In this document: in pieces, positions 1,514-50,054 of the stretch
Layout of the letters: the number at the start of each line of letters is the position of its first letter
Numbering within the stretch: the first letter of the stretch is position 1
Origin: a virus
Virus record (IMG/VR): IMGVR_UViG_3300023174_003433
Coordinates: 1 to 64,000 of that record
Direction: 5' to 3' (one strand)
DNA: 64,000 bases
Notes under the pieces: model-generated
Seen by the model: the letters and a program-made list of their open reading frames with translations, nothing else
Database searches by the model: none
What the model was told of the DNA's origin: nothing
Made by a program: the position numbers and the translations under genes

Positions 1514-1588
1514 TGGTTGCGGGGGAAGGAATCGAACCTACGGCCCCTGGATTATGAGTCCAATGCTCTACCTCTGAGCTACCCCGCT
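1514..1588 (-). tRNA. tRNA with CAU anticodon (Met or Ile2)
   Basis: 75-nt cloverleaf on the minus strand. Acceptor strand AGCGGGG pairs with CCCCGCA except for position 1:72 (A-A). D arm GCUC/GAGC, anticodon loop CUCAUAA with anticodon CAU at 1556-1554, T loop UUCGAUU, discriminator A and an encoded CCA. The T stem has one U-U mismatch. The anticodon stem lacks the three G-C pairs of initiator tRNA. CAU can be elongator Met, or Ile2 if the wobble C is modified to lysidine; sequence alone does not decide. Confidence 0.88.
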
Positions 1589-31929: not shown

Positions 31930-32497
31930 CTATCTTTCTTTTCATTCTTGGTTTAAATGCTCTACCAAGAAACCATCCGGTTGGAATTGTATCTCCATTT
32001 TTAATTTTTTTTGAATCTGTGTTATTGTTTATCCAAATAGAGCCAAAACTAGGATTTTTTTGGCCAGTTCTTGTTCCTATCATTGATTTTTTTATATTTA
32101 ACCTATGTTCTTTTGATTTTGGTTTTTTGTGTTTGTTTTTTGTTTCTTCTGAAAGTTTCCAAGTTTTGCCTTTGGAACCATTTGTTAATTTCCTAACTTT
32201 CAAAAATTGATTTTTTTTAATTGTTTTTTCTTCTTCGGTTAAATTATTCCAAAATTCTTTACCTTTTTTAGATAAATGGTTTTTTATTGATTCTTGATTC
32301 ATTATACCTTTAAGTATATCTTCTTTACCAATTAAACCGGCCAGTCCTTGCCAAGCATAATAATCTTGATATCTTCCTTGTTCTTCCCAAAGCAATTTAT
32401 GAGCTTCGGCGTGTTCTTCAACAGTAAGTTCTATTAAGTTTGATGGATCATCAGTACCACCAGCGTGTTTTGGAATAATATGGTGTTTATGTTTCAT
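31922..32497 (-). CDS. HNH homing endonuclease (free-standing)
   Basis: 191 aa. KHHIIPKHAGGTDDPSNLIE and LTVEEHAEAHKLL form the HNH zinc-finger-like nuclease. Then two NUMOD3-like DNA-binding segments (GKTWKLSEETKNKH; KSKEHRLNIKKSMIG) and a terminal repeat (IWINNNTDSKKIKNGDTIPT, GWFLGR). It fills exactly the space between the gene 13 stop (TGATATG junction) and the second codon of gene 14, leaving no room for a ribozyme, so it is not an intron ORF. Expected to cut gene-13/14 junctions that lack it and to spread by repair. Confidence 0.9.
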   Translation of the reverse strand: MKHKHHIIPKHAGGTDDPSNLIELTVEEHAEAHKLLWEEQGRYQDYYAWQGLAGLIGKEDILKGIMNQESIKNHLSKKGKEFWNNLTEEEKTIKKNQFLKVRKLTNGSKGKTWKLSEETKNKHKKPKSKEHRLNIKKSMIGTRTGQKNPSFGSIWINNNTDSKKIKNGDTIPTGWFLGRAFKPRMKRKIGT

Positions 32498-33312: not shown

Positions 33313-34146
33313 TTATTGTATTCCAAGACTTTTCCTTATTTTGGTTGCGGAAATATCAGTAATTGATTTATCAAAAGACTCTTGTTCAATTTTATAACCT
33401 ACATCACGACCATAAGTAATATTTACAATGTTTGGTACCACCTGAATCTCATATTGACCTTGAAACAACGGATCCAAATCTCTACGGATGTATGATTTAA
33501 CTTGTTCAATGGCAAAAGGATTAGAACCTTGCCATCCTTGACAGTCACGGATTTGAATAACCACTTGACCAGTTTTGGCAATGGCTCGCTCAAATAAAGC
33601 TCGATGGCCTTCATGCCATGGTTGCCAACGACCTAACATCTGTACAGTTTCTTTCTGCCAGTCAAATGTTGGACGCCTACGATTCTCAATGATATGGTTA
33701 CCAATAAACTCAGCCCATTTTTCAGCATTTTGTTCTGTCACACGGAAGTCATATACTTCTGGTGGAATGAACGCTTTATTGGTATCTTCAAATCGACCTT
33801 TTTCAATTGTGTCCATCCAAATAGTCCAATCGGCTTTAAAGTTGTTTCTCATCTCAACCAATGGCGCCACAAAATCACAGATAACATAATCACCGCCAGC
33901 CTCTAAAGCAAACTGTGCCATTCTTAGAGATTGGCGAATACGACCAGCATCTGAGAAATCCCAATCATTATATTTTTTACGAACTTCATCAGCATTAAAC
34001 CAAGTGACTTGAGCATTAAAGCCTGTAATTGGCAACATCTCAGCAATATTATTCGTTGTACCGTTTTTTTCAAGGTATTTTTTTAAGGCTTCTGCCATAA
34101 ATGTTTTTCCAGAACCTGGTAATCCCATAATCAAAATCTTTTTCAT
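33313..34146 (-). CDS. APS-kinase-like kinase fused to a nucleotidyltransferase
   Basis: 277 aa, two domains. Residues 1-155: P-loop GLPGSGKT at 8-15, FNADEVRKKYN near 50 and GGDYVICDFVAPLVEMRNNF, the layout of adenylylsulfate kinase. Residues 165-277: LGRWQPWHEGHRALF with His178-Glu-Gly-His181 and ISATKIRKS at 265-273, the HxGH nucleotidyltransferase fold. Similar fusions in phages are usually named adenylylsulfate kinase. If true, the first domain makes PAPS, the sulfate donor for the sulfotransferase at 36123. The substrate of the second domain is unknown. Confidence 0.8.
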   Translation of the reverse strand: MKKILIMGLPGSGKTFMAEALKKYLEKNGTTNNIAEMLPITGFNAQVTWFNADEVRKKYNDWDFSDAGRIRQSLRMAQFALEAGGDYVICDFVAPLVEMRNNFKADWTIWMDTIEKGRFEDTNKAFIPPEVYDFRVTEQNAEKWAEFIGNHIIENRRRPTFDWQKETVQMLGRWQPWHEGHRALFERAIAKTGQVVIQIRDCQGWQGSNPFAIEQVKSYIRRDLDPLFQGQYEIQVVPNIVNITYGRDVGYKIEQESFDKSITDISATKIRKSLGIQ

Positions 34147-34156
34147 TTGTATTCCT

Positions 34157-34894
34157 TTATTGAGGTTTGCATAATAAATTATTTCCTACTACCTTATAAT
34201 CATATTCATACTGATCTAAAAATTGCTTGATATCATCTATAATAGTTTTTCTGTTGTCGCAGTGTTCCACAAATATAATAGGTAGGTGCTTTTTGATTGT
34301 ATTGGAGCCTCCAACTAAAACATCTAAGTCCATACCTTCTACATCTATCTTTAGCAGATGCACTTTAGGTATATTATAGTGTTCTAAAAACCAATCAATT
34401 GTGTGTATGTCAACAACGACTTTATTGTTTGTTTTTTCGGTAATAATATCTTCTACTAAACTAAAAGTACCAAAATCATTTTTTCTAAAGTAATTAGGTT
34501 CTTCAAATTCAATTTTAGTATTATCTTTACCTAATCCAATGTTGTATGGATATACATTATATAGATTGTTTATAGAAGCATTTCCACACAGCATTTTAAA
34601 CACTTCTCTTTGAGGCTCAAAAGAATATATTTTTCCTTGAGGAAAGGCTCTGGACATCCAAGTGGTAAACGTTCCTATATTGGCACCAATGTCAAATATT
34701 ATAGGTTCAGAATATTCTTTAATTGATTCATAACAATTGAATGCTTCAATCGTAGAAGTATTTCCATGATCTAATAACCATTGGCCATGACCAACTTGTT
34801 CACTATTACAATCAAATCGATTTACAATCATTAAACCGTGGTCACAACTCAGTAACACATTTCGGTGAACTTTATCACCTATATTAAAAACCAT
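34157..34894 (-). CDS. FkbM-family methyltransferase
   Basis: 245 aa. IIFDIGANIGTFTTWMSRAF is the SAM-binding motif I region and LLKIDVEGMDLDVLVGG is the second hallmark of the FkbM family. Members methylate hydroxyl groups of sugars, often in surface polysaccharides or nodulation factors. Third of the cassette; co-directional with its neighbours, 1-2 nt from the next methyltransferase. Confidence 0.85.
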   Translation of the reverse strand: MVFNIGDKVHRNVLLSCDHGLMIVNRFDCNSEQVGHGQWLLDHGNTSTIEAFNCYESIKEYSEPIIFDIGANIGTFTTWMSRAFPQGKIYSFEPQREVFKMLCGNASINNLYNVYPYNIGLGKDNTKIEFEEPNYFRKNDFGTFSLVEDIITEKTNNKVVVDIHTIDWFLEHYNIPKVHLLKIDVEGMDLDVLVGGSNTIKKHLPIIFVEHCDNRKTIIDDIKQFLDQYEYDYKVVGNNLLCKPQ

Positions 34895-34895
34895 T

Positions 34896-35498
34896 CTATT
34901 CTTTCAACTTTTTAAAAGCCACTTGAAAAGAATCTGGTAAATGTATTAATTCTATTTTATGCCAATTACATTGTATAAACATCTCAATGCCCATTCTTGG
35001 AGAGAGTTGTACAGGAGCACTACCATGTTCATCAACAAGTTTCCAGCCTATAGAATCGTCACATAACATTACTCCGCCTACTGGCAGTAATCTCCAAGAT
35101 AGCATCATATCTTCTAGAACAGCAGCAGATGTATGGTCACCATCAACAAAAATAAATTCAGCTGTTTCTTTTTGATGAATCAACTCGACTAAAGCCTCAT
35201 AACTGTATTTGTTAATGTATGTTACATTGCCTACACACTTACTTAAATTATATTCAAACGTTCTTTTAATTGTTTTAAAATCAAAATTTGGATTATCATT
35301 TAATGTGGTGTGTGGATCAATGGCATATATTTTAAATTTATCATTATGAATTTTACCAAACTCTGAAACCCAAAATGTGGTTATTCCTTCAAAACAACCA
35401 ATTTCTATCATTGTGTTTGGTACACCAAACTTTTCAAATAAAAATTTAATATTCGTTTGAGTTCTTTCTCTACCCATATCGACTGTTGAAATATACAT
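34896..35498 (-). CDS. Class I SAM-dependent methyltransferase (type 24-like)
   Basis: 200 aa from ATG 35498 in a TGATATG junction with the upstream gene; the open frame extends to 35528 within that gene. MIEIGCFEGITTFWVSEF is motif I, FKIYAIDPHTT follows, and EFIFVDGDHTSAAVLEDMML with VGGVMLCDD are typical of the Methyltransf_24 type. Target unknown. Confidence 0.82.
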   Translation of the reverse strand: MYISTVDMGRERTQTNIKFLFEKFGVPNTMIEIGCFEGITTFWVSEFGKIHNDKFKIYAIDPHTTLNDNPNFDFKTIKRTFEYNLSKCVGNVTYINKYSYEALVELIHQKETAEFIFVDGDHTSAAVLEDMMLSWRLLPVGGVMLCDDSIGWKLVDEHGSAPVQLSPRMGIEMFIQCNWHKIELIHLPDSFQVAFKKLKE

Positions 35499-35499
35499 A

Positions 35500-36108
35500 T
35501 CAATTATTCTTTTTATGCCAATCAGCAAATCTTCCTGGCTTATGCACTCTGATAAAAATATTTACACTTTCACAGACATTCGCCATAGTATTTAAATTAA
35601 TGTCCATCTGTTTTGGTGCCAGCATACCATCTTGCTGTTGTTGTAACCAATAGCCAACCATATTGTAAGTCACATCATAAACTTCCAAATCTACGTCATG
35701 GTATAATCCAAATGTACTATCACTTAATTTTTTAGCAATAGATTCAAAATTTACTTTTTGGTCAAACATTTTAAAAGTTTTGGCAGTCAATGGCCTAACA
35801 TGAGTGTAATCGTCCCAAAACAAATCACACCGATGATGTGGTACATTGATAAACCATTCTGCTTGATCTGCACTTACTCGATACATTTCTTTAATAATAT
35901 TGGTAAAAACTTTTGGATCTTGACCTAAATGTTCCAAAACATTATCTGCTGTAATTTTTTCAAAGAAGTTATCTTCATATGGCCAAGGAGTTATTTCAAA
36001 ATCTAATACTTCATCAGGATTACATTTGGCTTCTACATCTACATTCCAATGGTCGTTTAATTTTTTAAATCCACAACCCATGTTTAGTTTTTTATTTTCT
36101 GGTGTCAT
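35500..36108 (-). CDS. Class I SAM-dependent methyltransferase (type 11-like)
   Basis: 202 aa from ATG 36108, which has AAGGAATATATT before it; an in-frame codon at 36141 is inside the sulfotransferase. KLNMGCGFKKLNDHWNVDVE is motif I, then DFEITPWPYEDNFFEKITAD and NVLEHLGQDPKVFTNIIKEM. This pattern is seen in methyltransferases of surface-polysaccharide clusters. Target unknown. Confidence 0.82.
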   Translation of the reverse strand: MTPENKKLNMGCGFKKLNDHWNVDVEAKCNPDEVLDFEITPWPYEDNFFEKITADNVLEHLGQDPKVFTNIIKEMYRVSADQAEWFINVPHHRCDLFWDDYTHVRPLTAKTFKMFDQKVNFESIAKKLSDSTFGLYHDVDLEVYDVTYNMVGYWLQQQQDGMLAPKQMDINLNTMANVCESVNIFIRVHKPGRFADWHKKNN

Positions 36109-36122
36109 AATATATTCCTTTA

Positions 36123-36920
36123 TTAAATCCAAGCATTCCAAAATATTTCACGATTATACTGTTCGTAAATATCAAGTCCAAGATACTCTACACAATTAAC
36201 TGTGGTACGATCAAGTGATGGCTTAATCTTGTGTAAGTTAGGCAAACCAATTGCCAAATCATTATACACTTCTGTTTGAACAATCTTTTCAAAATCATGT
36301 TCAAACTTTGGTAGTTCTAAAAATTCATAGATACGTTTAGTTTGGCTTTTTGGACTATTGCAAAAACGATTGTAATCAATAAAAAGAAAACGATCCAAAT
36401 AACCCATTGTAATTGCATCTTTAATATTTCTATGAGATAATCCCATTGCGCCTTCTGGACCAGCATAGTAATAAGCTCTTGAAGCAATATTGGATCCTTC
36501 TCTTAAAGAAGAATCTGCTTTGGTAAAAAACAAAGGATTCTCTTTTCTAAGTTTTTCAAAAGAAGTTAAAATTTCGGCTGGGTTTCTAACACAAACAATA
36601 ATTTTAACTTTGCGATCCAAAATTGCTTCGACTTGTGGTAGTAGTGGAATCCATCCACGGTCTTTATCAACAATAATAGGCTTATCAATATGAGAATAAT
36701 ATCCCTGTAATACTGATTTTAAAACTCCAACTTTGGCATCTGTATTATTATATTCTTGATTTTGTTCCATACTAGACCAAGAAGCATTAATACTACCAAA
36801 TATAGAAGATAAAGAACTTACGGATTCTCCGTGAACTTCTGAATTTTGTTTGAGTATGTTTGTTATGAGAGTGGAACCTGATCTTGGGAGACCTGCCACA
36901 AAATGTATGGTTTTTTCCAT
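36123..36920 (-). CDS. Sulfotransferase family protein (PAPS-dependent)
   Basis: 265 aa. Residues 5-20 (IHFVAGLPRSGSTLIT) form the 5'-phosphosulfate-binding loop and residues 106-122 (KIIVCVRNPAEILTSFE) the 3'-phosphate-binding segment, in the spacing of bacterial sulfotransferases. FLFIDYNRFCNSPKSQTKRI, YEFLELP supplies the C-terminal region. Transfers sulfate from PAPS to a sugar, lipid or tyrosine. The PAPS-forming kinase is two kb downstream in the same cassette. Own late promoter at 36971. Confidence 0.88.
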   Translation of the reverse strand: MEKTIHFVAGLPRSGSTLITNILKQNSEVHGESVSSLSSIFGSINASWSSMEQNQEYNNTDAKVGVLKSVLQGYYSHIDKPIIVDKDRGWIPLLPQVEAILDRKVKIIVCVRNPAEILTSFEKLRKENPLFFTKADSSLREGSNIASRAYYYAGPEGAMGLSHRNIKDAITMGYLDRFLFIDYNRFCNSPKSQTKRIYEFLELPKFEHDFEKIVQTEVYNDLAIGLPNLHKIKPSLDRTTVNCVEYLGLDIYEQYNREIFWNAWI

Positions 36921-36970: not shown

Positions 36971-36978
36971 TATTTATA
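36971..36978 (-). promoter_or_regulatory. Late promoter of the sulfotransferase-methyltransferase unit
   Basis: Exact TATAAATA on the minus strand at the 3' end of the TPR-glycosyltransferase gene, 51 nt before the sulfotransferase start. It puts the cassette under late control, with virion genes. Confidence 0.72.
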
Positions 36979-38035
36979 CGCTTATTTTTTCAGCTTTTTG
37001 TTTTTTAGTTTTTTGAGGAAAACGTTCTTTTAATTCATTAGAAACTTTTTGAAATGTATCTGTCCAATCTCCAAATTTAGTTTGCCTAAAAACTTTAGTG
37101 GTGTTTTGATACCAAGGACTATGATCTCCTCCATAAGCCCAAACATGATATGGTAACAATGGCACAATTACCCATGTGGGTTTACCCATTGCAGAAGCAA
37201 GATGAGCAATACTAGTACAAGAAGTAATAACTAAATCTAAATTAGCAATACATGCAGCTGTATCTTCCCAAGAAATTATTAAATGTTGAAGATCGGATAT
37301 TGCTTCAGGTAATTCTTTTACATCTGTATCTCTTTGCAAACTATAGAATTGTATATGAGGAAAATCTTTGTGTAAATTAATTAATTTTTCTGCAGGAAAA
37401 ATACGAAATTGCTGATGTTCAAAAAGAGGGCTACCACTCCAACGAATACCAACTTTTATTTTTTCTGTGTTTAACATTGTTTTCCAAAGATCGACACTTT
37501 CGTTTTTAGCAAAAATGTAAGGCTCGTTTGGTAAATTATCAAATTCATGTCCAAATAACCAGCTAGCACTAAATCCTGGAATCCAAAAATCATGATATGT
37601 TTGAGATACTTGGTCTAAAGTGATACATTCTTTAACACCAGGAATCCGTAGAAAGAGGGGGTGCAATAATTTTTCACAACACATAATACATTTACCGCCT
37701 CGTTTCCAAATTTCGGTGGCAAATCTAGCGTAAATCATTTGGTCGCCAAAACCACACTCCATATTTAAAATGACAGTTTTACCTTTTAAATCACTTTGAT
37801 CCCAAATTGGCTTAGTAGTGTTAATTTTACCACTACCATAAACTTTGAGTGCTCGTCCATTTTCAAGACATTGAAATCCTTCTTGTAATTTTCCTTGATT
37901 AATAAGAAACCAACCACGATTAAATTTTGCTTTTGGATCTGTAGGATCTAAAGCTTCCAATTCTTCAGCCAATTTCCAAGCTTCTTCAAATCTTCCTCTT
38001 ATCATCAAATTCAATTGCTGATCAATCATATGCAT
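36974..38035 (-). CDS. TPR-glycosyltransferase (GT9/heptosyltransferase-like)
   Basis: 353 aa. Residues 5-70 form TPR-like helices (RGRFEEAWKLAEELEALDPT, FNRGWFLINQGKLQEGFQCL). Residues 85-345 resemble GT-B transferases: ILNMECGFGDQMIYARFATE, VGIRWSGSPLFEHQQFRIFP, FYSLQRD, CIANLDLVITSCTSIAHLAS and MGKPTWVIVPL, the heptosyltransferase-like donor-binding region. Shine-Dalgarno CAGGAG before the ATG. Could glycosylate a virion protein or host glycan. Acceptor unknown. Confidence 0.82.
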   Translation of the reverse strand: MHMIDQQLNLMIRGRFEEAWKLAEELEALDPTDPKAKFNRGWFLINQGKLQEGFQCLENGRALKVYGSGKINTTKPIWDQSDLKGKTVILNMECGFGDQMIYARFATEIWKRGGKCIMCCEKLLHPLFLRIPGVKECITLDQVSQTYHDFWIPGFSASWLFGHEFDNLPNEPYIFAKNESVDLWKTMLNTEKIKVGIRWSGSPLFEHQQFRIFPAEKLINLHKDFPHIQFYSLQRDTDVKELPEAISDLQHLIISWEDTAACIANLDLVITSCTSIAHLASAMGKPTWVIVPLLPYHVWAYGGDHSPWYQNTTKVFRQTKFGDWTDTFQKVSNELKERFPQKTKKQKAEKISV

Positions 38036-38083: not shown

Positions 38084-41000
38084 TTATGAAATTCCTACTG
38101 TATGAGCATCACCACCAGCAGATACAGCAGTCCATGAGCTGGATCCTATTTGTACTGGACTGGATCTACTGGTAAGTGTACCATCTCCTAATCGGCCACT
38201 ACCATTATATCCCCACGTAAACAATGTACCACCAGAACGTATAGCTGCTGTATGTACACCACCAGCAGATACAGCAGTCCATGAGCTGGATCCTATTTGT
38301 ACTGGACTGGATTTACTGTTAATGGATCCACTTGTACCATCTCCTAATTGGCCTTGACCATTATATCCCCATGTAAACAAGGTACCACCAGAACGTATAG
38401 CTGCTGTATGATTACCACCAGCAGATACAGCAGTCCATGAGCTGGATCCTATTTGTACTGGACTGGATCTATTGATAAGTGTACCATCTCCTAATCGACC
38501 GACACTATTAGATCCCCATGTAAACAAGGTACCACCAGAACGAATAGCTGCTGTATGAATACTACCAGGACCAGCAGCCACAGCAGTCCATGAGCTGGAT
38601 CCTATTTGTACTGGACTGGATTTTTGAGTACCAAAACCACCAGTACCATCTCCTAATTGGCCATTACTATTAAGTCCCCACGTAAACAAAGTACCACCAG
38701 AACGAATAGCGACTGTGTGACTAAGACCACCAGCCACAGCAGTCCATGAGCTGGATCCTATTTGAACTGGACTGGATCTAGATGTGCTTGTACCATCTCC
38801 TAATTGGCCATATGTATTATTTCCCCATGTAAACAAGGTACCACCAGAACGAATAGCTGCTGTATGATCACGACCAGCACCTACAGCAGTCCATGAGCTG
38901 GATCCTATTTGAACTGGACTGGATCTACTAGTAGTTGTACCATCTCCTAATTGGCCAGCATTAACTCCCCATGTAAATAATCTTCCATCAGAACGAATAG
39001 CTGCTGTATGAGTACCACCAGCAGCCACAGCAGTCCATGAGCTGGATCCTATTAATAAGGGAGAAGGTAGAATAACCACAACATTATTGCCTACTGTTAT
39101 TGGACTGGATTTATTAGTTAATGATCCACCTGTACCATCTCCTAATTGGCCAGATTGATTATATCCCCATGTAAACAATATATTATCAGAACGAATAGCT
39201 GCTGTATGACCTCTACTTACGCTACTATTACCACCACCAGACACAGCAGTCCATGAGCTGGATCCTATTTGTATAGGACTGGATCTACTGACAATTGAAC
39301 TATTTCCTAATTGGCCTTGACCATTATATCCCCATGCAAACAGAGTACCACCAGAACGAATAGCTGCTGTATGCCTACCTCCAGCAGACACAGCAGTCCA
39401 GGAACTAGATCCTATTTGTACTGGCCTAGATTTAGCAACAGCTGTACCATCTCCTAATTGGCCACCAGTATTACCTCCCCATGTAAATAAGTAGCCATCA
39501 GAACGAATAGCTGCTGAATGAGATAAACCAGCAGTTACAACAGTCCATGACATAGATGCAAAATCGGATCCAATTTGTACTGGACTGGATTTACTGTTAA
39601 TGGCTCCACTTGTACCATCTCCTAATTGGCCATGAAAATTATATCCCCATGTAAATATTGTACCACCAGAACGTATAGCTGCTGTATGAGCATCACCACC
39701 AGACACAGCAGTCCATGAGCTGGATCCTATTTGTACTGGACTGGATCTATTGGTAAGTGTACCATCTCCTAATCGGCCATCACTTCTTTGAGAATTATTT
39801 CCCCATGTAAACAAATATCCATCAGAACGTATAGCTCCAGTATGATACCTACCAGCACCTACAGCAGTCCATGAGCTGGATCCTATTTGTACTGGACTGG
39901 ATTTGAGAGCAGTTGTACCATCTCCTAATTGGCCAGCACTATTAAATCCCCATGTAAATAGTGTACCACCGGAACGAATAGCTACTGCATGGTATTGGCC
40001 ACCAGCCACAGCAGTCCAAGAGCTAGATCCTATTTGTACTGGACTAGATTTAGAAACATTCGTACCATCTCCCAATTGGCCAAAAATACCTTGGCCCCAT
40101 GTAAACAACGTACCCCCAGAACGAATAGCTGTTGAATGCCGGCGCCCAGCAGCCACAGCAGTCCATGAACTAGATCCTATTTGAACTGGACTGGAGCTAC
40201 TAGTAGTTGTACCATCTCCTAATTGGCCATTATTATTATAACCCCATGTAAACAAGTAACCATCAGAACGAATAGCTGCTGTATGATCATTTACACTACC
40301 AGCAGCTACAGCAGTCCATGAGCTGGATCCTATTTGTACAGGACTGGAGCTACTAGTAGTTGTACCATCTCCTAACTGGCCATTGTTATTAAATCCCCAC
40401 GTAAATAATGTGCCACCAGATCGAATAGCTACTGTATGCTTAGCACCAGTACTCACAGCAGTCCATGAACTGGATCCAATTTGAACTGGACTGGATCTAG
40501 AAGTGGTTGTACCATCTCCTAAACATCCAGGATTATTATAACCCCATGTAAATAAATATCCATCAGAACGAATAGCTGCTACATGCGCATAACCAGTAGA
40601 CACAACAGTCCAACTCGCAGAACTTGCAATTACAACTGGACTTGATTGCACTATATTAATGAATCCTATTTGTACAGGACTGGATCTATTGGTAAGTGTA
40701 CTATCTCCCACTTGGCCCGCAGTATTAATTCCCCATGTAAATAATAAATTATCAGAACGAATAGCTCCCGCATGATAACCACCAGTACTCACAGCAGTCC
40801 ATGAGCTGGATCCTATTTGTACAGGACTGGAGCTACTAGTAGTTGTACCATCTCCTAACTGGCCACCGCTATTAAATCCCCACGTAAATAATGTGCCACC
40901 AGATCGAATAGCTGCTGTGAAAGCTGCGCCAGCATTTATTACAGTCCAGGAACTAGATCCTATTTGAATCGGACTGGATTTGCTATTAGCATCACCGGAT

Positions 41001-43450
41001 GTACTATCACCTATTTGTCCTCTGTAATTACCTCCCCATGTAAATAAGGTACCACCAGAACGAATAGCTGCTGTATGAGAACCACCAGCAGATACAGCAG
41101 TCCATGAGCTGGATCCTATTTGAACTGGACTGGATAGTGAAACAAGATTATTTCCAACCGTTACTGGACTGCTTTGCCTGAACCGTGTGCCAAAACTAAT
41201 TTGTCCTAATTGGCCATAATTATTAATTCCCCATGTAAATAAGGCACTATAAAAACCACTAGAACGAACAGCTGCTGTATAATATCGGCCAGCAGACACA
41301 GCAGTCCATGAACTAGATCCTATTTGTACTGGACTGGATTTATCAGCAGTTGTACCATCTCCCAATTGGCCTTGGGCATTTCGACCCCATGTAAACAAAG
41401 TACCACCAGAACGAATAGCTGTTGTATGATCGTTACCACCAGACACAGCAGTCCATGAGCTGGATCCTATTTGAACTGGACTGGATCTAGATGTGCTTGT
41501 ACCATCTCCTAATCGACCTTGGCCATTAGATCCCCATGTAAACAAGTAACCATCAGAACGAATAGCTGCTGTATGATAAGCACCAGCATTTACAGCAGTC
41601 CATGAACTAGATCCTATTTGAACCGGACTGGATTTAGCAACAGCTGTACCATCTCCTAATTGGCCATAATTATTTTGGCCCCATGTAAATAATAAATTAT
41701 CAGAACGTATAGCAATTCCATGTCGAGCACCAGCATCTACAACAGTCCATGAGCTGGATCCTATTTGTACAGGACTGGATCTATTGGTGGTACCACCATC
41801 TCCTAACTGACCAGTACTATTATATCCCCATGTAAACAAGGTACCACCAGAACGAATAGCTGCTGTATGAGATAAACCAGCAGTTACAACAGTCCAAGAG
41901 CTGGATCCAATTTGAACTGGACTGGACCTATTAAAACCAGAAGTCCCATCACCCACTTGTCCTCTGTAATTACCTCCCCATGCAAACAAATATCCATCAG
42001 AACGAATAGCTGCTGTATGAGTACCACCAGCAGCCACAGCAGTCCAAGAGCTGGATCCAATTTGAACTGGACTAGATTTACCAACAATTGTACTATCTCC
42101 TAATTGGCCTTGGGTATTTCGACCCCATGTAAATAATAAATTATCAGAACGAATAGCTGCTGTATGGTAACCACCTACAGACACAACAGTCCAGCTAGAT
42201 AAATTTGTTAGTGACTCATTTCCAATTTGGCCCGCACTTCCAAGACCCCATGTAAACAAGTATCCAATATTATTAATAGCTGCTGTATGAGTACCACCAG
42301 CACTTACAGCAGTCCATGAGCTGGATCCTATTTGAACTGGACTAGATTTATCAGCAGTTGTACCATCTCCTAATTGGCCTTGAAGATTATATCCCCATGT
42401 AAATAAGGTACCACCAGAACGAATAGCAGTTGTATGAAAAAAACCAGCATCTACAACAGTCCATGAGCTGGATCCTATTTGTACAGGACTGGATCTATTG
42501 GTAGTTGTATTATCTCCTAATCGACCGTTTCCATTACCTCCCCATGTGAACAAGGTACCACCAGAACGAATAGCAACTGTATGAACATAACCAGCACTCA
42601 CAGCAGTCCATGAGCTAGAGCCTATTTGTACTGGACTGGATCTAGTGGTAGTTGTACTATCTCCTAATTGACCATAATTATTTCGTCCCCATGTAAATAA
42701 TAAATTATCGGAACGAATAGCAGCTGTATGAGAACCATTAACAGACACAACAGTCCAGCTAAGCAAAGCTGTTGTATCTCCTTGCCCCAACTGGCCAGAA
42801 CCATTAAGTCCCCATGTAAATAAGGTACCACCAGAACGAACAGCCATTGTATGAAGAGCACCAGCAGCTACAGCAGTCCATGAGCTGGATCCTATTTGTA
42901 TTGGACTGGATTTATTGGTAAGTGTACCATCTCCTAATTGGCCTTGACCATTATATCCCCATGTAAACAAGTAACCATCAGAACGAATAGCTGCTGTATG
43001 ATTACCACCAGCAGCCACAGCAGTCCATGAACTGGATCCTATTTGTACTGGACTAGATTTATTGAAAGTTGTACTATCTCCTAATTTGCCATATTGATTA
43101 AATCCCCATGTGAACAAAGTACCACCAGAACGAAGAGCAGCTGTATGTCTAAATCCAGCAGACACAGCAGTCCATGAGCTGGATCCAATTTGAACTGGAC
43201 TGGATCTAGTGGTAGTTGTATTATCACCTAATACGCCATTATTATATCCCCATGTAAACAAGTAACCATCAGAACGAATAGCTGCTGTATGAGAACCACC
43301 AGCACTTACAGCAGTCCAACTGGATAAAGGTGTTGTTACAGTTGTTCCTAACTGGCCATAAGCATTATTTCCCCATGTGTATAAAAATTTATTCTCGGCT
43401 GGAGCAGCTGCAGAAGCACCTTTAGCTAAAAGTTGTTCAATGAATAACAT
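38084..43450 (-). CDS. Giant RCC1-repeat beta-propeller protein, candidate receptor-binding fibre
   Basis: 1788 aa. After a 25-residue leader (MLFIEQLLAKGASAAAPAEN) the whole chain is RCC1-type repeats: LFTWG, a variable N.....G.LGDGT segment, SSPVQIGSSSWTAVSAG, HTAAIRS. I count 35 units of about 50 residues, the last one truncated after HTVGIS. RCC1 propellers have seven blades, so 35 would be five propellers. It lies among fibre genes next to a tail assembly chaperone. No signal peptide or membrane segment. Most likely a surface-exposed adhesin; no enzymatic motif is visible. The DNA units are nearly identical and the gene should recombine. Confidence 0.9.
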   Translation of the reverse strand: MLFIEQLLAKGASAAAPAENKFLYTWGNNAYGQLGTTVTTPLSSWTAVSAGGSHTAAIRSDGYLFTWGYNNGVLGDNTTTTRSSPVQIGSSSWTAVSAGFRHTAALRSGGTLFTWGFNQYGKLGDSTTFNKSSPVQIGSSSWTAVAAGGNHTAAIRSDGYLFTWGYNGQGQLGDGTLTNKSSPIQIGSSSWTAVAAGALHTMAVRSGGTLFTWGLNGSGQLGQGDTTALLSWTVVSVNGSHTAAIRSDNLLFTWGRNNYGQLGDSTTTTRSSPVQIGSSSWTAVSAGYVHTVAIRSGGTLFTWGGNGNGRLGDNTTTNRSSPVQIGSSSWTVVDAGFFHTTAIRSGGTLFTWGYNLQGQLGDGTTADKSSPVQIGSSSWTAVSAGGTHTAAINNIGYLFTWGLGSAGQIGNESLTNLSSWTVVSVGGYHTAAIRSDNLLFTWGRNTQGQLGDSTIVGKSSPVQIGSSSWTAVAAGGTHTAAIRSDGYLFAWGGNYRGQVGDGTSGFNRSSPVQIGSSSWTVVTAGLSHTAAIRSGGTLFTWGYNSTGQLGDGGTTNRSSPVQIGSSSWTVVDAGARHGIAIRSDNLLFTWGQNNYGQLGDGTAVAKSSPVQIGSSSWTAVNAGAYHTAAIRSDGYLFTWGSNGQGRLGDGTSTSRSSPVQIGSSSWTAVSGGNDHTTAIRSGGTLFTWGRNAQGQLGDGTTADKSSPVQIGSSSWTAVSAGRYYTAAVRSSGFYSALFTWGINNYGQLGQISFGTRFRQSSPVTVGNNLVSLSSPVQIGSSSWTAVSAGGSHTAAIRSGGTLFTWGGNYRGQIGDSTSGDANSKSSPIQIGSSSWTVINAGAAFTAAIRSGGTLFTWGFNSGGQLGDGTTTSSSSPVQIGSSSWTAVSTGGYHAGAIRSDNLLFTWGINTAGQVGDSTLTNRSSPVQIGFINIVQSSPVVIASSASWTVVSTGYAHVAAIRSDGYLFTWGYNNPGCLGDGTTTSRSSPVQIGSSSWTAVSTGAKHTVAIRSGGTLFTWGFNNNGQLGDGTTTSSSSPVQIGSSSWTAVAAGSVNDHTAAIRSDGYLFTWGYNNNGQLGDGTTTSSSSPVQIGSSSWTAVAAGRRHSTAIRSGGTLFTWGQGIFGQLGDGTNVSKSSPVQIGSSSWTAVAGGQYHAVAIRSGGTLFTWGFNSAGQLGDGTTALKSSPVQIGSSSWTAVGAGRYHTGAIRSDGYLFTWGNNSQRSDGRLGDGTLTNRSSPVQIGSSSWTAVSGGDAHTAAIRSGGTIFTWGYNFHGQLGDGTSGAINSKSSPVQIGSDFASMSWTVVTAGLSHSAAIRSDGYLFTWGGNTGGQLGDGTAVAKSRPVQIGSSSWTAVSAGGRHTAAIRSGGTLFAWGYNGQGQLGNSSIVSRSSPIQIGSSSWTAVSGGGNSSVSRGHTAAIRSDNILFTWGYNQSGQLGDGTGGSLTNKSSPITVGNNVVVILPSPLLIGSSSWTAVAAGGTHTAAIRSDGRLFTWGVNAGQLGDGTTTSRSSPVQIGSSSWTAVGAGRDHTAAIRSGGTLFTWGNNTYGQLGDGTSTSRSSPVQIGSSSWTAVAGGLSHTVAIRSGGTLFTWGLNSNGQLGDGTGGFGTQKSSPVQIGSSSWTAVAAGPGSIHTAAIRSGGTLFTWGSNSVGRLGDGTLINRSSPVQIGSSSWTAVSAGGNHTAAIRSGGTLFTWGYNGQGQLGDGTSGSINSKSSPVQIGSSSWTAVSAGGVHTAAIRSGGTLFTWGYNGSGRLGDGTLTSRSSPVQIGSSSWTAVSAGGDAHTVGIS
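38100..43410 (-). repeat. About 35 tandem RCC1-coding repeats, unit about 150 bp
   Basis: The core block coding SSPVQIGSSSWTAV (plus-strand CAGTCCATGAGCTGGATCC and following bases) recurs nearly unchanged in most units, while the bases coding the N.....G segment differ. Units 1, 5 and 9 lack the SSPVQIGSS part; units 16, 19 and 29 have a second copy of it. Confidence 0.92.
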
Positions 43451-43945
43451 TTAATTTTCTAATGATGGCCAATTGACTTGAGCAATATTCACAACCTCAT
43501 TTTCTGAATATACTTGTATAATATCTCTTAGAGCTTGTCGATATATAATCCATTTATTTTTGGTGTTTTCATCAAATAAATTTTGTACATCTTGTAATTG
43601 AGTCCAATCAGAACTAACTAACAATTCATTTCTTTTTTTTCTTAGTTCTTCTATAAATCTATATTTTAAAGTAGAGAATTCTTCAACAGGTTCTGGTTGT
43701 CTTTCAGTTATAATAATACTTTCTAAAACATCATTCTCTCTAATCTCATAATTATATCCACTTACATAATGGGTTAAATCATTCCACGTTTCATTTTGTT
43801 TAGTTACAGGATACCAACCTACAGATTTTAAAAAAGGCAAATCATCAGCAGCCAAATTTAGTCCGCTTACATTTCTCCAATTATTAGGTAGTAAGTCATA
43901 CTGACCTGTAATTTCATTATTTTCTATGTGTACCCAATTTGCCAT
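43451..43945 (-). CDS. Tail fibre assembly chaperone-like protein
   Basis: 164 aa. C-terminal ELRKKRNELLVSSDWTQLQD, KNKWIIYRQALRDIIQVY and VNWPSLEN match the phage tail assembly chaperone type (Phage_tail_APC), in which RR.ELL..SDWTQ..D..L and W..YR.ALRDI are conserved. The first 90 residues are a separate domain (NNEITGQYDLLPNNWRNVSG). It directly precedes the RCC1 gene, which suggests it helps that protein fold or attach. Confidence 0.75.
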   Translation of the reverse strand: MANWVHIENNEITGQYDLLPNNWRNVSGLNLAADDLPFLKSVGWYPVTKQNETWNDLTHYVSGYNYEIRENDVLESIIITERQPEPVEEFSTLKYRFIEELRKKRNELLVSSDWTQLQDVQNLFDENTKNKWIIYRQALRDIIQVYSENEVVNIAQVNWPSLEN

Positions 43946-43957
43946 TTTTAATATCCG

Positions 43958-44518
43958 TTATTTGCTGTCTACCATAGAGGCCACACCTCGCCAATTTAAA
44001 CCGCCGTCATCTGTGATAAATGTTAACACATCAACACCGGCCGCTGTAAGAGATGGAGCTGTACCTCCAGGCCATTTGACTGCCGAAGGCCAAGTTAATG
44101 CTGCAGAGCCTCCATTGGTAAGCTCTAAAACAAAACCGATGGCAGCCGGCGGTGCAATTGGATTAGAAAATACCCAAGTTGTAACACCCGTTACAGTTGC
44201 TGATACATAATTACCTAAAGTTAAATCTATGGTTCTAGTACCAGAACCAGCACCCAATACATTATGTGTTGTACCATATTGAGTAATTGCTCTGTTACTG
44301 TTTATGTATGGAGAACCCAATATAGAATATGAATTGGCTGTTATGATACCAGTATGCGAACTTAATAAAACTTCTACGTTGGTGACTTGTGTGCCACCAA
44401 CAGGTAAAGTTTTGAAAAGCCGATTTGATGTTGGGTCATACACCTCATCACCAAGCCGTTGGCCGTTTAATGAGGTGTTTGCCGATACTACATGCCGAAT
44501 ATAATCCCGAGAGGACAT
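43958..44518 (-). CDS. Small tail-fibre structural protein
   Basis: 186 aa from ATG 44518, preceded by GGGAGG; the longer frame to 44581 overlaps the upstream gene. MSSRDYIRHVVSANTSLNGQ, then RLGDEVYDPTSNRLFKTLPV and a beta-rich C-terminus with WPSAVKWPGGTAPSLTAAGV and DVLTFITDDGGLNWRGVAS, a segment frequent in phage fibre and tail-tip proteins. No enzyme motif. Confidence 0.7.
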   Translation of the reverse strand: MSSRDYIRHVVSANTSLNGQRLGDEVYDPTSNRLFKTLPVGGTQVTNVEVLLSSHTGIITANSYSILGSPYINSNRAITQYGTTHNVLGAGSGTRTIDLTLGNYVSATVTGVTTWVFSNPIAPPAAIGFVLELTNGGSAALTWPSAVKWPGGTAPSLTAAGVDVLTFITDDGGLNWRGVASMVDSK

Positions 44519-44528
44519 TTTACCTCCC

Positions 44529-47429
44529 TTAAGCTTGTGCCTCTGACCAACTAAAACGAGCGGCAACGTTAGCTGCACCACCTAATGGAGTAATACACAA
44601 AGTTAAAATATCTGGACCATCAGGATAAATTTGCAATGCTGTGTTTGATACGGCATTGTTTACACCGCCACCTAAAATACTATTACCAATATCACGCAAC
44701 CTTACTAAATCTTGAGAATCTGTATTATTTGCTGGTGTAAAGCCGGTCCAAATTGATTCACCACCATTAATTACAGCTGCTGGTCCATGAATAGCATACT
44801 GTGCTAAAGAAGAACCTCCAACTGGCAGATAAGTTCCTGAAGAAACACGACCATTCAAAACCAATTCAGCACGAACAGCATTATTAGAAGCAAAAATACC
44901 TATTGAAGCGGGAGCTAATTGCATACGGTTAATAATTTCACGTTGTCCTAAAACACCAGCAGTACCATTGTCAATTGATGGTGCTAGGCGAACACTAAAC
45001 ACCGGATAACGTATTGCTGGGCTTGGATATGTTTGTTGAGTATTTTGTCCAAAATTAAAAATAAATGATTTATCATCATCATAACGGCCGTCCATAATTA
45101 CAGAAGAACCCCAGTGACTAACTGTTGATGCTTGGCCAGGTGAATAAGATTCAACACGAACAGGAGCTGTACCACCAGGATTGACTGCTGTAGCACCAGT
45201 AACGGTAAATGTTGTTGCTGTGCTAGTACCTAAAGCAATACCACCAGTATTTGCTGAGTTGCGTTGTAGTCCTGTAAATGTTGTTGCTGTTTTACCTGTG
45301 TAGTAAATATATTCAATTGCACCACCAGTATCAGCAGCTGCATAAACTAATAATACACCAACAGGTGGGAAGAATGTTGTATCATTAACTGTCATTGATG
45401 TTGCACCAGCAGCCAATGTAGCAGTTAAGAATGTTGTAACAGGAATTGTATTTGTTTCGTAACGAGCAGGCAAGTTACCAGAACGCATATATGCTTCTGT
45501 GTTGATGTTGTTGTTTGGCATACGATGGCAATAAATTACTTCTCCACGAGTGTTCTTAAATCCGAAACGAACAGCACCTGCACCATACCAAGAATAGTCG
45601 GCATAGAACATTTGCATTCTTGTTAAATCTAGATTGAATAAACTTGCACCAGTGCCATCACACCGGTCAATATTCCATTGCGATTGAGGTACACGTAAAT
45701 CAACTGTTTTACTAATTTGGCAAGCAGACGATGTTACGCCACGATACTCAGGATAAATGTACATTAAAGTATCAGATACAATTGTTTGTACCAGATATGA
45801 TTGGCCACGAATGACAATATAATCATTTGGTTTTAGTTGTTGACTGAAACGAGTGCTTGTACCAAATACAGCACCGTTACCAGAAACAACAGAACCAACA
45901 CCAGATAATTGTAATGTGCTTGAACGTCTAACTGCATATAATGTTTGGCCATCATATTCAAAGAAGAAACCGTTTTGTGAATCAAACATACCAACACGAT
46001 TAGCAGCACCATACCAAGAATATGGTGAAACATTTAGTGGAAATCCAGATGCTGTTGCAGATGATGGTACTGAGTTTGCTGTGTAAGTAAACTGTAAAGG
46101 AGTATTTGCACCAGTCACGGTAAACAATCCATTGTATGCCGTTTCTGTTGCACCTGAAATTAAAATTTGTGAGTTGGCACCAAGACCATGAGCGAACTTG
46201 GTTGTTACTGTACAAGTCGTACCAGAACTTGTAATACCATCAGTTGCAACTGCTGGTTTTAGAATAGAACCGGTTGAAAATTGAATACCTTTACCGGACT
46301 GATAACGGAATTGACGGCGTGTCTGACGAATAACTTGATAACCATGGAATGGAGATACGTTAGAGAATTGAACACCGCCATCAAATGGACGATGCTGAAC
46401 ATAACCTAATGGACGTGGATAAATTGACGCATTGGCGGGAGCTGTAATTGTTCCTGTTGCGGCACAAGAGAATGTAAATATGTTAGTATTAGGTGTATTA
46501 GCAACAACCCAAGAACTGTTAATAAGTCCTGTATTGCCTGTGGCACCAGTAACATAAAATCCATCACCGACTCGAAAGCCATGAGCATTGGCTGTTGTGA
46601 TTGTACCAACTACACCGTTCAAAACGATGGTACCACCTGCTGCACCTGAAGAAGGTAACGCAGCGCCAGTATAATATGCACCAATAAATAAAACTGTTTT
46701 ATTAGAATCAAATAAAGCAGCTGCAGGAGTGTTTATTACTGTATATGTAAAGTTGGCATTAGGAGAAACGCCTTCAACAATCCACCATCCATCAGCGTTA
46801 GCATTATCTAAAGTACCTTGTACAAAAATAGGAGTGCCAGCAGTAATACCTGTTGTATTATTAATTGCTACTGTTACTGTTTTACCGGATGCTGTAACGT
46901 TAGTAATTTGATATGAACCAGCAGAACCAACGTTAGTAGAACCAACAAATGCTACGTTAGCAGAAATGTTTGAAATACTTTGTGTAGGATCATAAAAAGC
47001 ACCAGGACGATTGTTAAGAAGATTAATTGATTCCCATTTTGTTGGCTGAGGACCATATTCAAAGTCTGTATCAATCAATGCCTGTGGAGTAGATACACGC
47101 ATTTTGTCCACAGGATCACGTAAAACTTCATTTGGAGTAATTTCTTGATAAGTTTCTTCTGTAAGAATAGATAACTTATCTGTCGAGTTCATCGAGCCAG
47201 TAGCAAAAGCTAATACAATAGTGGTTGTTTCTAAACCACTAACTGTATTGGACGAATTGGTAAATGAAGTTGCTTGAAGTGCTGGATCGGAGAAATTATA
47301 AATGACTGTGCCAGAAGTTGTATTGGTAATCAATAACAACTGCTCTCTACGAATGTTTTTACCAGATACCGTAACGGTTCTTGTTGACGGGGTAAATGTG
47401 TAACTTTCTAATATAACATGCTTTGCCAT
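44529..47429 (-). CDS. Large virion structural protein
   Basis: 966 aa. MAKHVILESYTFTPSTRTVT, then Thr/Asn/Gly-rich beta segments with repeated TVTVAINNTTGITAGTPIFV-like units (fibronectin-like or Ig-like feel), a central YVQHRPFDGGVQFSNVSPFH and RQFRYQSGKGIQFSTGS. Proteins with this sequence style and the RDPVDKMRVS / DTDFEYGPQPTKWE N-terminus are, as I recall, conserved virion proteins of aquatic T4-like phages. Exact place in the virion unknown. Confidence 0.75.
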   Translation of the reverse strand: MAKHVILESYTFTPSTRTVTVSGKNIRREQLLLITNTTSGTVIYNFSDPALQATSFTNSSNTVSGLETTTIVLAFATGSMNSTDKLSILTEETYQEITPNEVLRDPVDKMRVSTPQALIDTDFEYGPQPTKWESINLLNNRPGAFYDPTQSISNISANVAFVGSTNVGSAGSYQITNVTASGKTVTVAINNTTGITAGTPIFVQGTLDNANADGWWIVEGVSPNANFTYTVINTPAAALFDSNKTVLFIGAYYTGAALPSSGAAGGTIVLNGVVGTITTANAHGFRVGDGFYVTGATGNTGLINSSWVVANTPNTNIFTFSCAATGTITAPANASIYPRPLGYVQHRPFDGGVQFSNVSPFHGYQVIRQTRRQFRYQSGKGIQFSTGSILKPAVATDGITSSGTTCTVTTKFAHGLGANSQILISGATETAYNGLFTVTGANTPLQFTYTANSVPSSATASGFPLNVSPYSWYGAANRVGMFDSQNGFFFEYDGQTLYAVRRSSTLQLSGVGSVVSGNGAVFGTSTRFSQQLKPNDYIVIRGQSYLVQTIVSDTLMYIYPEYRGVTSSACQISKTVDLRVPQSQWNIDRCDGTGASLFNLDLTRMQMFYADYSWYGAGAVRFGFKNTRGEVIYCHRMPNNNINTEAYMRSGNLPARYETNTIPVTTFLTATLAAGATSMTVNDTTFFPPVGVLLVYAAADTGGAIEYIYYTGKTATTFTGLQRNSANTGGIALGTSTATTFTVTGATAVNPGGTAPVRVESYSPGQASTVSHWGSSVIMDGRYDDDKSFIFNFGQNTQQTYPSPAIRYPVFSVRLAPSIDNGTAGVLGQREIINRMQLAPASIGIFASNNAVRAELVLNGRVSSGTYLPVGGSSLAQYAIHGPAAVINGGESIWTGFTPANNTDSQDLVRLRDIGNSILGGGVNNAVSNTALQIYPDGPDILTLCITPLGGAANVAARFSWSEAQA

Positions 47430-47433
47430 TTAA

Positions 47434-50019
47434 TTAATCTCCTAGTGCTATAGTAGCGGCTGAATATGGATATCTTCTATTTTGTGAAGCTGATGAACTA
47501 TTTATAAGCGTTAGAATCGCTTGGTCACCTGGTGCAGGTGGGTTGTAAATTACCAATTGAGAACTGGTATTACTACTTACCACCCTATGACCTTTAAAGG
47601 AATCATATGGTATTAACCATGGGTACCGAATCTCTGTTACATACGGTGCCAATTTAGCACCATTAATAATGACTTCCAGATTTCTGGAGTTCATAATGTT
47701 AATTACATTTGACTGTTCCGACCTCAAATCAAATACACATTTAAGGTTATCAAACTGATTAGTAATATCATTTAGAACTACGGATGGTGATGGAGTGACT
47801 ACGTTATTTGCAAGAACTGAAGTTACTATCTCAACACCACCAGAAACAAATACAGTATTGGAAATTAAATTTCCTGTTAGAACTATTGTATTGTTAGAAG
47901 CAACAAAGAATGAATTACTATTACTTAAATAACCTGTTGAGTTAGCAACGATGATTGTATTGGCTAACCATCCAAATCCGCCACCTGTGGCAGCTGTTGT
48001 TTGTTTTGTGCCATCAGCAAACGTAATACCATTGGAACCAGCAAAAAATGTATTGGCTGCACTAATGTTTGTATTGGAATAAATGGCACCATTGGCATAT
48101 AAAGCCCAAGAATTAGTTACAGTAAGATTCGTATTAGCAACATTAATTGATGGAGCATTTATATGAACTGTTGATAAATTTCTATAAGTTACTGGTGCAG
48201 GTGCATTTCTTAATATTGGACCAATAAAATAATTATAATATATTGGTTCTGCTATTGTTCCTGTATCGGAGATATCCACAAAAGTGGATCCTTTAACAAA
48301 TAAACTTCCTCCTAAAGCACTACCAAAGGGTCCACTTAGATTACGCAAAGAAAAGCCGTTATTGGTGCTACCACTGGTAGTTAAACCATTTTGTAAAACG
48401 GTGCCTCCGGTACTCGTAAAACTAAACGATGTCAATGAGGCAATCCAGCTAGCACCGGCGATGTAGGCACCACCAGCCATTTGTAAACTACCCGCCACCG
48501 GAAAACTACTTCCAGCATTTGTTCCAGTGAGTACCAAATTAGCCGCAGTGAATGTATTGGCTAATTGTAAATTATTATTAGATTGAAAAAATTGTAAATT
48601 ACTTGTGTTTGAAAGATAACCAGTAGAGTTAGCAACGATAACTGTATTGGCTGTCCAGCTAGATAATGTTTGATTGATTGCTGTATTACTATAATCCAAC
48701 CTTACATTCTGGCTGTTATCTACACCTTGTATAATAGTAATGGCTGTGTTACTGTAATCAATTCTTACATTTTGGCTTGCATCAGTACCTTCAATTACAG
48801 TTAATCTGGTATTTTGAGTAACATCAGTGCCTTGAATAATGGTGATGGCTGTATTACTATAATCCAACCTTACATTCTGGCTAGCATCTGTACCTTCAAT
48901 TACAGTTAATCTGGTATTTTGAGTAACATCAGTACCTTGAATTATGGTGATGGCTGTATTACTATAATCCAACCTTACATTCTGGCTAGCATCAACACCA
49001 TCCGCAATGGTCATTCTAGCGTTCTGGCTAGTATCAGTACCTTCTATAATAACCATTCTAGCATTTTGGCTTACATCTGTACCTTCAATAATAACCATTC
49101 TAGCATTTTGGCTAGTGTCTGTACCTTGAATTATGGTGATAGCTGCATTGCTATAATCTAAACGGACATTTTGGCTTGCATCAGTACCTTCAATTACAGT
49201 AAGTCTGGTGTTCTGGCCAACATCCACACCTTGAACAATAGTAATGGCTGTATTGCTATAATCCAATCTTACGTTTTGGCTAGTATCAGTACCTTGAATA
49301 ATAGTTATAGCTGTATTGCTATAATCTATTCTAACGTTTTGACTAGCATCTACACCATCCGCAATGGTCATTCTAGCATTTTGGCTAGTATCAACACCTT
49401 GAATTATGGTGATAGCTGCATTGCTGAAATCTAACCTTACATTCTGACTAGCATCTACACCTTGAATAATGATAGTGTTTGCCGAGGCACTATTTGCAGT
49501 ATCTCTGGCCGCTTGGTCAATCGATGTGCCGCCACCGCCACCACCAGAACCCATAACCCAAGGTAATCCGTTAGCCGCATATCGTAATATGTCAGTATAG
49601 ATACCATTTGATCCTGCACTTGTGCCACCAACATAGATATTACCTGTTACACCGACACCACCAAAAACAACTAGTTCACCAGTCGTATTTGAATTTGAGG
49701 TTGTTGCAGATGTGTTGGCACCAATAACAACACTACCATTGTATTGTGCTAGATTAACACGACCAGTATCCAGCACCTCAATACTAGGAATACCAGAGAT
49801 GTCATTGACGGAGAATAAAGAACCAGTTAGATTGTTGGTAATTGAGAATAGTTGACCAGCAGAACCTTCAAATGATAGAGTTCCATTAGATGTAGGATAA
49901 GCCCGAATGGTGATATTGGCTGAATTGGATGTGGTATTGGCCGCAGAAAAGACAATCGTAGGATCATTATTGGATCCAACATTGGGCGTTATTAGGATAT
50001 TTTTATCTAGATTACTCAT
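47434..50019 (-). CDS. Repeat-rich tail fibre A
   Basis: 861 aa. N-terminal 165 residues are a beta-rich attachment part (MSNLDKNILITPNVGSNNDP...). Residues about 170-450 consist of tandem units such as GTDASQNVRLDYSNTAITII and GVDASQNARMTI, spaced 14 or 21 residues, probably a rigid trimeric rod. The C-terminal 400 residues are Asn/Ser/Thr-rich, ending with a globular tip (NRRYPYSAATIALGD). The same repeats are in the fibre at 52084-56574. Host recognition is likely. Confidence 0.8.
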   Translation of the reverse strand: MSNLDKNILITPNVGSNNDPTIVFSAANTTSNSANITIRAYPTSNGTLSFEGSAGQLFSITNNLTGSLFSVNDISGIPSIEVLDTGRVNLAQYNGSVVIGANTSATTSNSNTTGELVVFGGVGVTGNIYVGGTSAGSNGIYTDILRYAANGLPWVMGSGGGGGGTSIDQAARDTANSASANTIIIQGVDASQNVRLDFSNAAITIIQGVDTSQNARMTIADGVDASQNVRIDYSNTAITIIQGTDTSQNVRLDYSNTAITIVQGVDVGQNTRLTVIEGTDASQNVRLDYSNAAITIIQGTDTSQNARMVIIEGTDVSQNARMVIIEGTDTSQNARMTIADGVDASQNVRLDYSNTAITIIQGTDVTQNTRLTVIEGTDASQNVRLDYSNTAITIIQGTDVTQNTRLTVIEGTDASQNVRIDYSNTAITIIQGVDNSQNVRLDYSNTAINQTLSSWTANTVIVANSTGYLSNTSNLQFFQSNNNLQLANTFTAANLVLTGTNAGSSFPVAGSLQMAGGAYIAGASWIASLTSFSFTSTGGTVLQNGLTTSGSTNNGFSLRNLSGPFGSALGGSLFVKGSTFVDISDTGTIAEPIYYNYFIGPILRNAPAPVTYRNLSTVHINAPSINVANTNLTVTNSWALYANGAIYSNTNISAANTFFAGSNGITFADGTKQTTAATGGGFGWLANTIIVANSTGYLSNSNSFFVASNNTIVLTGNLISNTVFVSGGVEIVTSVLANNVVTPSPSVVLNDITNQFDNLKCVFDLRSEQSNVINIMNSRNLEVIINGAKLAPYVTEIRYPWLIPYDSFKGHRVVSSNTSSQLVIYNPPAPGDQAILTLINSSSASQNRRYPYSAATIALGD
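47499..47506 (-). promoter_or_regulatory. Late promoter of the 44529-47429 gene
   Basis: Exact TATAAATA on the minus strand within the last codons of fibre A, 69 nt before the next start. It is in coding sequence, so chance is possible. Confidence 0.5.
48670..49480 (-). repeat. 14/21-residue coding repeats of fibre A
   Basis: Repeated DNA units of 42 or 63 bp coding [G][TV]D[AT]SQN[VA]R[LM] and the DYSNTAITIIQ spacer. About a dozen copies with small differences; highly similar to the repeats at 53330-56330. Confidence 0.85.
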
Positions 50020-50046: not shown

Positions 50047-50054
50047 TATTTATA
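50047..50054 (-). promoter_or_regulatory. Late promoter of fibre A
   Basis: Exact TATAAATA on the minus strand, 27 nt before the fibre A start. Confidence 0.72.

Follow-up and report, generated by a model that had tools for sequence, protein, structure and literature searches.

A phage RCC1 repeat protein with a predicted nest of five seven-bladed propellers, probably a receptor-binding fibre

Here we describe a 1788-amino-acid (aa) RCC1 repeat protein of a T4-like myophage. It is probably a receptor-binding fibre or adhesin in which five seven-bladed propellers are nested. This reading draws on features of the sequence, namely the seams between repeat units, their bracket arithmetic, length changes by sevens, module exchange and gene linkage, and on a structural model for the fold of an inner propeller. 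From these we infer the shape of the whole chain, its location in the virion, receptor binding, the placement of variable positions on one face and glycosylation.

The gene lies in a 64,000-nucleotide stretch of DNA (the window), taken from an IMG/VR virus record of 117,727 bases. This record carries T4-like sheath, portal, terminase and major head genes and is a T4-like myophage; its head protein is nearest to those of Methylophilales and Pelagibacter phages (62 to 65% identity). No RVT_1 domain or diversity-generating retroelement was found in the 117.7-kb record, which is perhaps incomplete, and defence-system profiles gave no match. A single tRNA-Met (CAT) gene is present at 1514 to 1588 (minus strand). 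Matches to the NfeD, Ivy, UB2H and FliO profiles in scans of the window were low-complexity noise.

Unit anatomy and propeller parse

The open reading frame (ORF) runs from 43450 to 38084 on the minus strand and encodes exactly 35 RCC1 units behind a 22-aa leader, with exactly 35 unit starts matching the motif [LI][FY][TA]WG. A Pfam scan of the ORF returned PF00415 in 34 stretches, with E = 0 for both PF25390 and PF00415, and no domain besides RCC1, the remainder being the leader. A preliminary description of this DNA had given the same coordinates and length, leaving the strand unstated, and its account of about 35 RCC1 repeats with no other domain save a short leader is confirmed. The standard unit consists of three conserved stretches and a fourth strand, designated segments A (LFTWG.N..GQLG), B (SSPVQIGS), C (SWTAVSAG) and D (HTAAIRSD). 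The units had also been described as alike and nearly identical in DNA, which they are not: the 17 standard 49-aa units are only 68 to 87% identical (mean, 78%), segment B is absent from units 1, 5 and 9, and it is doubled in units 16, 19 and 29.

The short and long units were parsed as brackets, an absent segment B marking an opening seam and a double segment B a closing one. Under this rule, an inner propeller begins with the C-D half of the short unit, runs through six whole units and ends with the A-B half of the long unit, whose second segment B is where the outer propeller restarts. The parse yields 7 blades for units 9 to 16, 7 for units 5 to 19, 14 for units 1 to 29 and 7 for the outermost set. 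Among the 32 places where segment B leads into segment C, the linker is abnormal in units 19 and 26 only, seven units from each other, and in the homologues L009 and L105 the linkers of those two units deviate as well, making 3 of 3 homologues. When these linkers are read as a B-C seam, the 14-blade propeller splits into 7 plus 7. The protein then resolves into five propellers, with 28 segments in each of A to D and 27 in propeller E, whose final segment D is cut short.

In the resulting map, with all coordinates on the minus strand, the 35-unit protein (38084 to 43450; motif parse and Pfam) would begin in base propeller E with the leader (aa 1 to 22) and a first segment A (together aa 1 to 35; 43346 to 43450). 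The chain would exit inside blade 1 of propeller E and build propeller D, whose part 1 is aa 36 to 222 (42785 to 43345). It would leave propeller D inside blade 5, between segments A and B, and build propeller B (part 1, aa 223 to 410, 42221 to 42784; part 2, aa 768 to 930, 40661 to 41149), which would bear in its own blade 5 the contiguous propeller A (aa 411 to 767; 41150 to 42220). Part 2 of propeller D, the segment B of blade 5 (aa 931 to 945; 40616 to 40660), would lie between inserted propellers B and C, and propeller C (aa 946 to 1296; 39563 to 40615), again contiguous, would be inserted between segments B and C of the same blade. The chain would then come back to close propeller D (part 3, aa 1297 to 1455; 39086 to 39562) and lastly propeller E, where the stack parse completes blade 1 and adds units 30 to 35 (aa 1456 to 1788; 38087 to 39085). 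Each daughter propeller would thus hang from a loop of its parent by two chain connections, an arrangement that would leave both protein ends at the base.

Cut out where the brackets place its ends, an inner segment is predicted to fold as a complete, closed seven-bladed propeller. The AF2 model of aa 417 to 769 (propeller A), made with 41 natural sequences, had a mean pLDDT of 95.1, a pTM of 0.92 and 28 strands, and its best matches in the PDB were the seven-bladed RCC1 folds of UVR8 (TM, 0.91), HERC2 RLDs (TM, 0.86) and RCC1 (TM, 0.78). Those proteins differ from the phage protein in being eukaryotic, in having one propeller per domain and in their functions, and there is no reason to expect Ran GEF activity in a phage of bacteria. 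A 713-aa two-propeller fragment modelled with only 3 sequences reached a pLDDT of 36.7.

The preliminary description had placed five propellers in a row, with 35 units as 5 × 7. The arithmetic is right, since every propeller of the protein has exactly seven blades, but the seams place the propellers one inside another. In a row, the propellers would be units 1 to 7, 8 to 14, 15 to 21, 22 to 28 and 29 to 35, and the short and long units would be harmless length variation. This arrangement does not predict that short units should be as many as long ones, or how the two are spaced, even though it gives 35 units as readily and suits the relatives L010, L132 and L023, which have 35 or 14 units and no bracket seams. 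In addition, for relative L011, with 49 units and 6 seam pairs, nesting alone yields seven blades per propeller, and the borders of the exchanged module described below coincide with those of propeller C (units 19 to 26) and mismatch the in-row borders. Tested as a linear tandem array, the ORF did not behave as one, given its bracketed seams and exchange borders. We therefore consider the in-row arrangement very improbable, and the sequence strongly supports propellers that are nested, each within a blade of another.

Seven-bladed propellers and their exchange among relatives

The same arithmetic was found in relatives. Across 14 proteins of 14 to 49 units (the window protein and 13 relatives), 57 of 58 propellers had seven blades, a tally made up of 49 of 50 counted first plus those of L113 (5) and L114 (3); the parse was partly hand-curated, for L011, L113, L114, L018a and the hidden B-C seam of the window protein. 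All propellers were sevens by the same parse in L115, L120/L121, L142, L126, L145b, L028, L106 and L124 (one segment A motif was missed in the last two, whose B and C counts were still 7), as they were in L011, L018a, L113 and L114 once missed motifs were inspected. The sole exception was L018b, in which one inner propeller has 6 blades. When seams were placed at random in the same bracket order, an all-sevens outcome arose in 0 of 200,000 trials for L011 and in 9 to 11 of 200,000 for L115 and the window protein (hidden seam included); small proteins are less decisive, with about 8% all-sevens for L028.

Relatives lacking seams mostly have 14, 21 or 35 units, with L010, L132, L133 and L023 appearing linear, and the single-propeller ORFs of L020, L026, L031 and L064 have 7 units apiece. 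The long relatives L012, L015, L017, L127, L154 and L155 gave no clean bracket parse; L012 encodes the largest family member met, a protein of 4384 aa and at least 78 units (L012:3722-16876) whose seams did not parse. In cellular genomes, the automated segment parser found no nested seams in the five distant matches. In L026, L064, L020, L031 and L088, the adhesin is split into several separate single-propeller ORFs in the same slot, an alternative, many-gene solution; those of L026 each have an N-terminal region of 200 to 250 aa, and the one scanned contained Ig-like domains of the TIG and He_PIG types.

Insertion sites were not spread evenly over the blades of inner parents. Daughter propellers sat in blade 5 (13 cases), 6 (4), 4 (3) or 3 (1) and never in blades 1, 2 or 7, in a tally that excludes L113 and L114. 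Since the parent itself is attached through blade 1, daughters tend to the far side and would extend the fibre, if the chain takes the shape we propose.

Comparison of the locus across related phages, as the preliminary description had suggested, showed that copy number varies between near-identical flanks: loci with flanks 84 to 99% identical have 35 (L009), 49 (L011), 42 (L106) or 14 (L028/L111) units. Counts shift by whole propellers (14, 21, 28, 35, 42 and 49). The proposal that copy number changes between relatives thus stands for the range of 14 to 49 units, with the step being a whole propeller and not a single blade. The preliminary description had also listed a fixed repeat number together with a non-propeller fold as evidence that would count against it; the number varies, and the inner propeller is confidently modelled as seven-bladed.

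Propeller C has a history of its own. It is 72% identical between the window and L009, which is the level of unrelated propellers, and 88.5% identical between L009 and L105, whereas the other four propellers show the reverse (86 to 91% and 68 to 72%, respectively). Along the DNA, the change from one identity level to the other falls inside units 19 and 26, where the seams are predicted. This pattern and these breakpoints indicate that whole propellers are exchanged. Recombination, invoked earlier as a means of altering the number and order of blades, is seen here as the exchange of one whole propeller.

Between the window and L009, with propeller C left out, dN/dS was 1.69 in variable columns against 0.10 in the core. 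The variable columns had been picked by how much positions differ inside the window protein itself, and dN can be raised when units exchange sequence. Flanking dN/dS was 0.01 to 0.10 in ten genes and 0.29, on few changes, in the APC gene. These values are suggestive of diversifying selection on the variable columns, and columns 6 to 9, 17 to 20 and 35 to 39 should, from strand order, lie on one face.

Tail neighbourhood and downstream cassette

Upstream of the RCC1 gene in transcription are a Phage_tail_APC family tail assembly chaperone (43451 to 43945, minus strand; PF16778, E = 3.4e-13) and, preceding it, tail-fibre-like and virion structural genes, including one for a 207-aa tail-fibre-like protein (43958 to 44581, minus strand; phrog_9017, E = 1.4e-12). 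The gene does lie in a tail-fibre cluster right after a tail assembly chaperone, as first described, and a surface adhesin remains the best reading, which this neighbourhood makes plausible; the form of the adhesin has changed from in-row to nested.

Other features of the region were recorded. Three adjoining, mutually related Laminin_G_3 (concanavalin-like) genes of 214 to 239 aa (50050 to 52081, minus strand) may encode a second group of tail proteins that bind glycans. Two proteins of 1496 and 861 aa (52084 to 56574 and 47434 to 50019, minus strand) have only low-complexity or spurious Pfam matches and are probably long repetitive fibres, with homologues scattered in the tail regions of relatives. 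An HNH/homing endonuclease-like gene (31922 to 32497, minus strand) lies between the genes for head-tail adaptor Ad2 and head closure Hc2, which directly adjoin, without the HNH gene, in L009 and L011.

Annotation already records RCC1 proteins in phages. In phage GAP32, the RCC1-like GAP_001, a distant relative of the window protein, was detected by mass spectrometry as one of the structural proteins (PMC5259590); phAPEC6 encodes eleven RCC1-like proteins, for which a DNA-organising role was suggested (PMC7247149). The matched GAP32 protein, K4F6B8, differs from ours in having 385 aa, the length of a single propeller, and no nesting is described for these phages (PMC5259590, PMC7247149). If the phAPEC6 proposal (PMC7247149) applied here, the window protein would be an internal or DNA-organising head protein and not a fibre, in keeping with the chromatin binding of eukaryotic RCC1 and with PHROGs, which place phage RCC1 proteins under DNA metabolism. 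We regard this as highly unlikely, because acid residues and lysine are nearly absent from the protein (E, 0.2%; K, 1.0%; R, 4.0%), its gene adjoins tail chaperone and fibre genes, and fast change at variable columns suits an exposed receptor binder. Moreover, gp12 of Pseudomonas phage PollyC couples an RCC1 propeller to a T7-type tail-fibre N-terminus (a match just under the Pfam cut-off), although this anchor differs from that of the window protein.

On the other side of the fibre gene, all on the minus strand, are genes for a TPR protein with a GT9-like glycosyltransferase C-terminus (36974 to 38035; weak GT9 Pfam match; TIGR02193, E = 0.0085), a sulfotransferase (36123 to 36920; PF00685, E = 9.5e-16), a methyltransferase-like protein (35500 to 36141; phrog_6636, E = 9e-10), a Methyltransf_24 family protein weakly matching rhamnosyl O-methyltransferase (34896 to 35528; PF13578, E = 1.8e-16), an FkbM methyltransferase (34157 to 34894; PF05050, E = 1.6e-25; TIGR01444) and a protein with APS-kinase-like P-loop and nucleotidyltransferase-like domains (33313 to 34146; PF01583, E = 3.8e-7), which possibly supplies the sulfate donor. 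The Glyco_transf_9 profile matched 17 of 28 members of the glycosyltransferase family weakly, at E = 0.003 to 0.1, under the curated cut-off, and PDB searches with the glycosyltransferase, by phmmer and by profile, yielded no useful match. L064 has the glycosyltransferase and a sulfotransferase joined in one fusion.

This cassette is linked to RCC1 genes. With the glycosyltransferase as the query, 45 loci were found, and in all 43 that were testable an RCC1 ORF lies directly upstream, ending less than 400 bp away. In the interval from the virion gene gp966 to the head-tail adaptor gene Ad2, at least three cassette genes were present in 16 of 16 loci with RCC1, which are about six distinct phages, several of them fetched by RCC1 or glycosyltransferase queries, and no locus without RCC1 had any (0 of 11). 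The freshwater cyanophages S-SRM01 and BUCT-ZZ01 (Kyanoviridae) likewise have RCC1 genes next to members of this TPR-glycosyltransferase family, and S-SRM01 groups RCC1 genes, the TPR protein, a sulfotransferase and sugar genes together; these phages differ in that the S-SRM01 propellers are single and in separate genes and BUCT-ZZ01 has 14 apparently linear units.

The gene linkage suggests that the cassette likely makes a glycan for the fibre, which the downstream genes would probably decorate with a sulfated, methylated glycan. Phage sugar-modifying genes can change host surface glycans, so the nested fibre may be right and the cassette still act on the host surface, for example as a superinfection block. 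That is a minority possibility, though not a negligible one: the all-or-none linkage with RCC1 (16 of 16 versus 0 of 11 loci) speaks for the fibre as the acceptor, and proteins are the usual targets of TPR glycosyltransferases.

Proposed growth of the fibre family

Single domain insertions are a known phenomenon, and some propellers of DDB1 are discontinuous in sequence. The DDB1 triple propeller is also three propellers on one chain (PMC3847654), but it is WD40-type, with a fixed number and without recursion or module exchange. No description of nested propellers was found in the open-access literature, and a nested multi-propeller fibre with modular growth and swapping of receptor-binding heads appears to be undescribed so far.

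The nested fibre would evolve through the gain, loss and swapping of whole propellers at seams and through diversifying selection at variable positions, which we place on one face. Recursive nesting may, at roughly even odds, be the growth rule of the whole fibre family, each new propeller going in whole at a single blade of an existing one, preferably blade 5, which would be nearly opposite the parent's own attachment. Fibres grown in this way would branch like trees, comprise 2 to 7 or more propellers and keep both chain ends at the base, and every propeller would serve as a glycosylated receptor-binding head that can be swapped.

If this is true, recursive nesting, to about six levels in one relative and with seven blades at every level, would be a new building rule for very large repeat proteins. 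It would account for changes in fibre length that leave every propeller intact, and it makes the control of blade number, modular receptor switching and phage fibre glycosylation testable. The DNA-metabolism label that PHROGs give to phage RCC1 proteins is probably misleading in this group.
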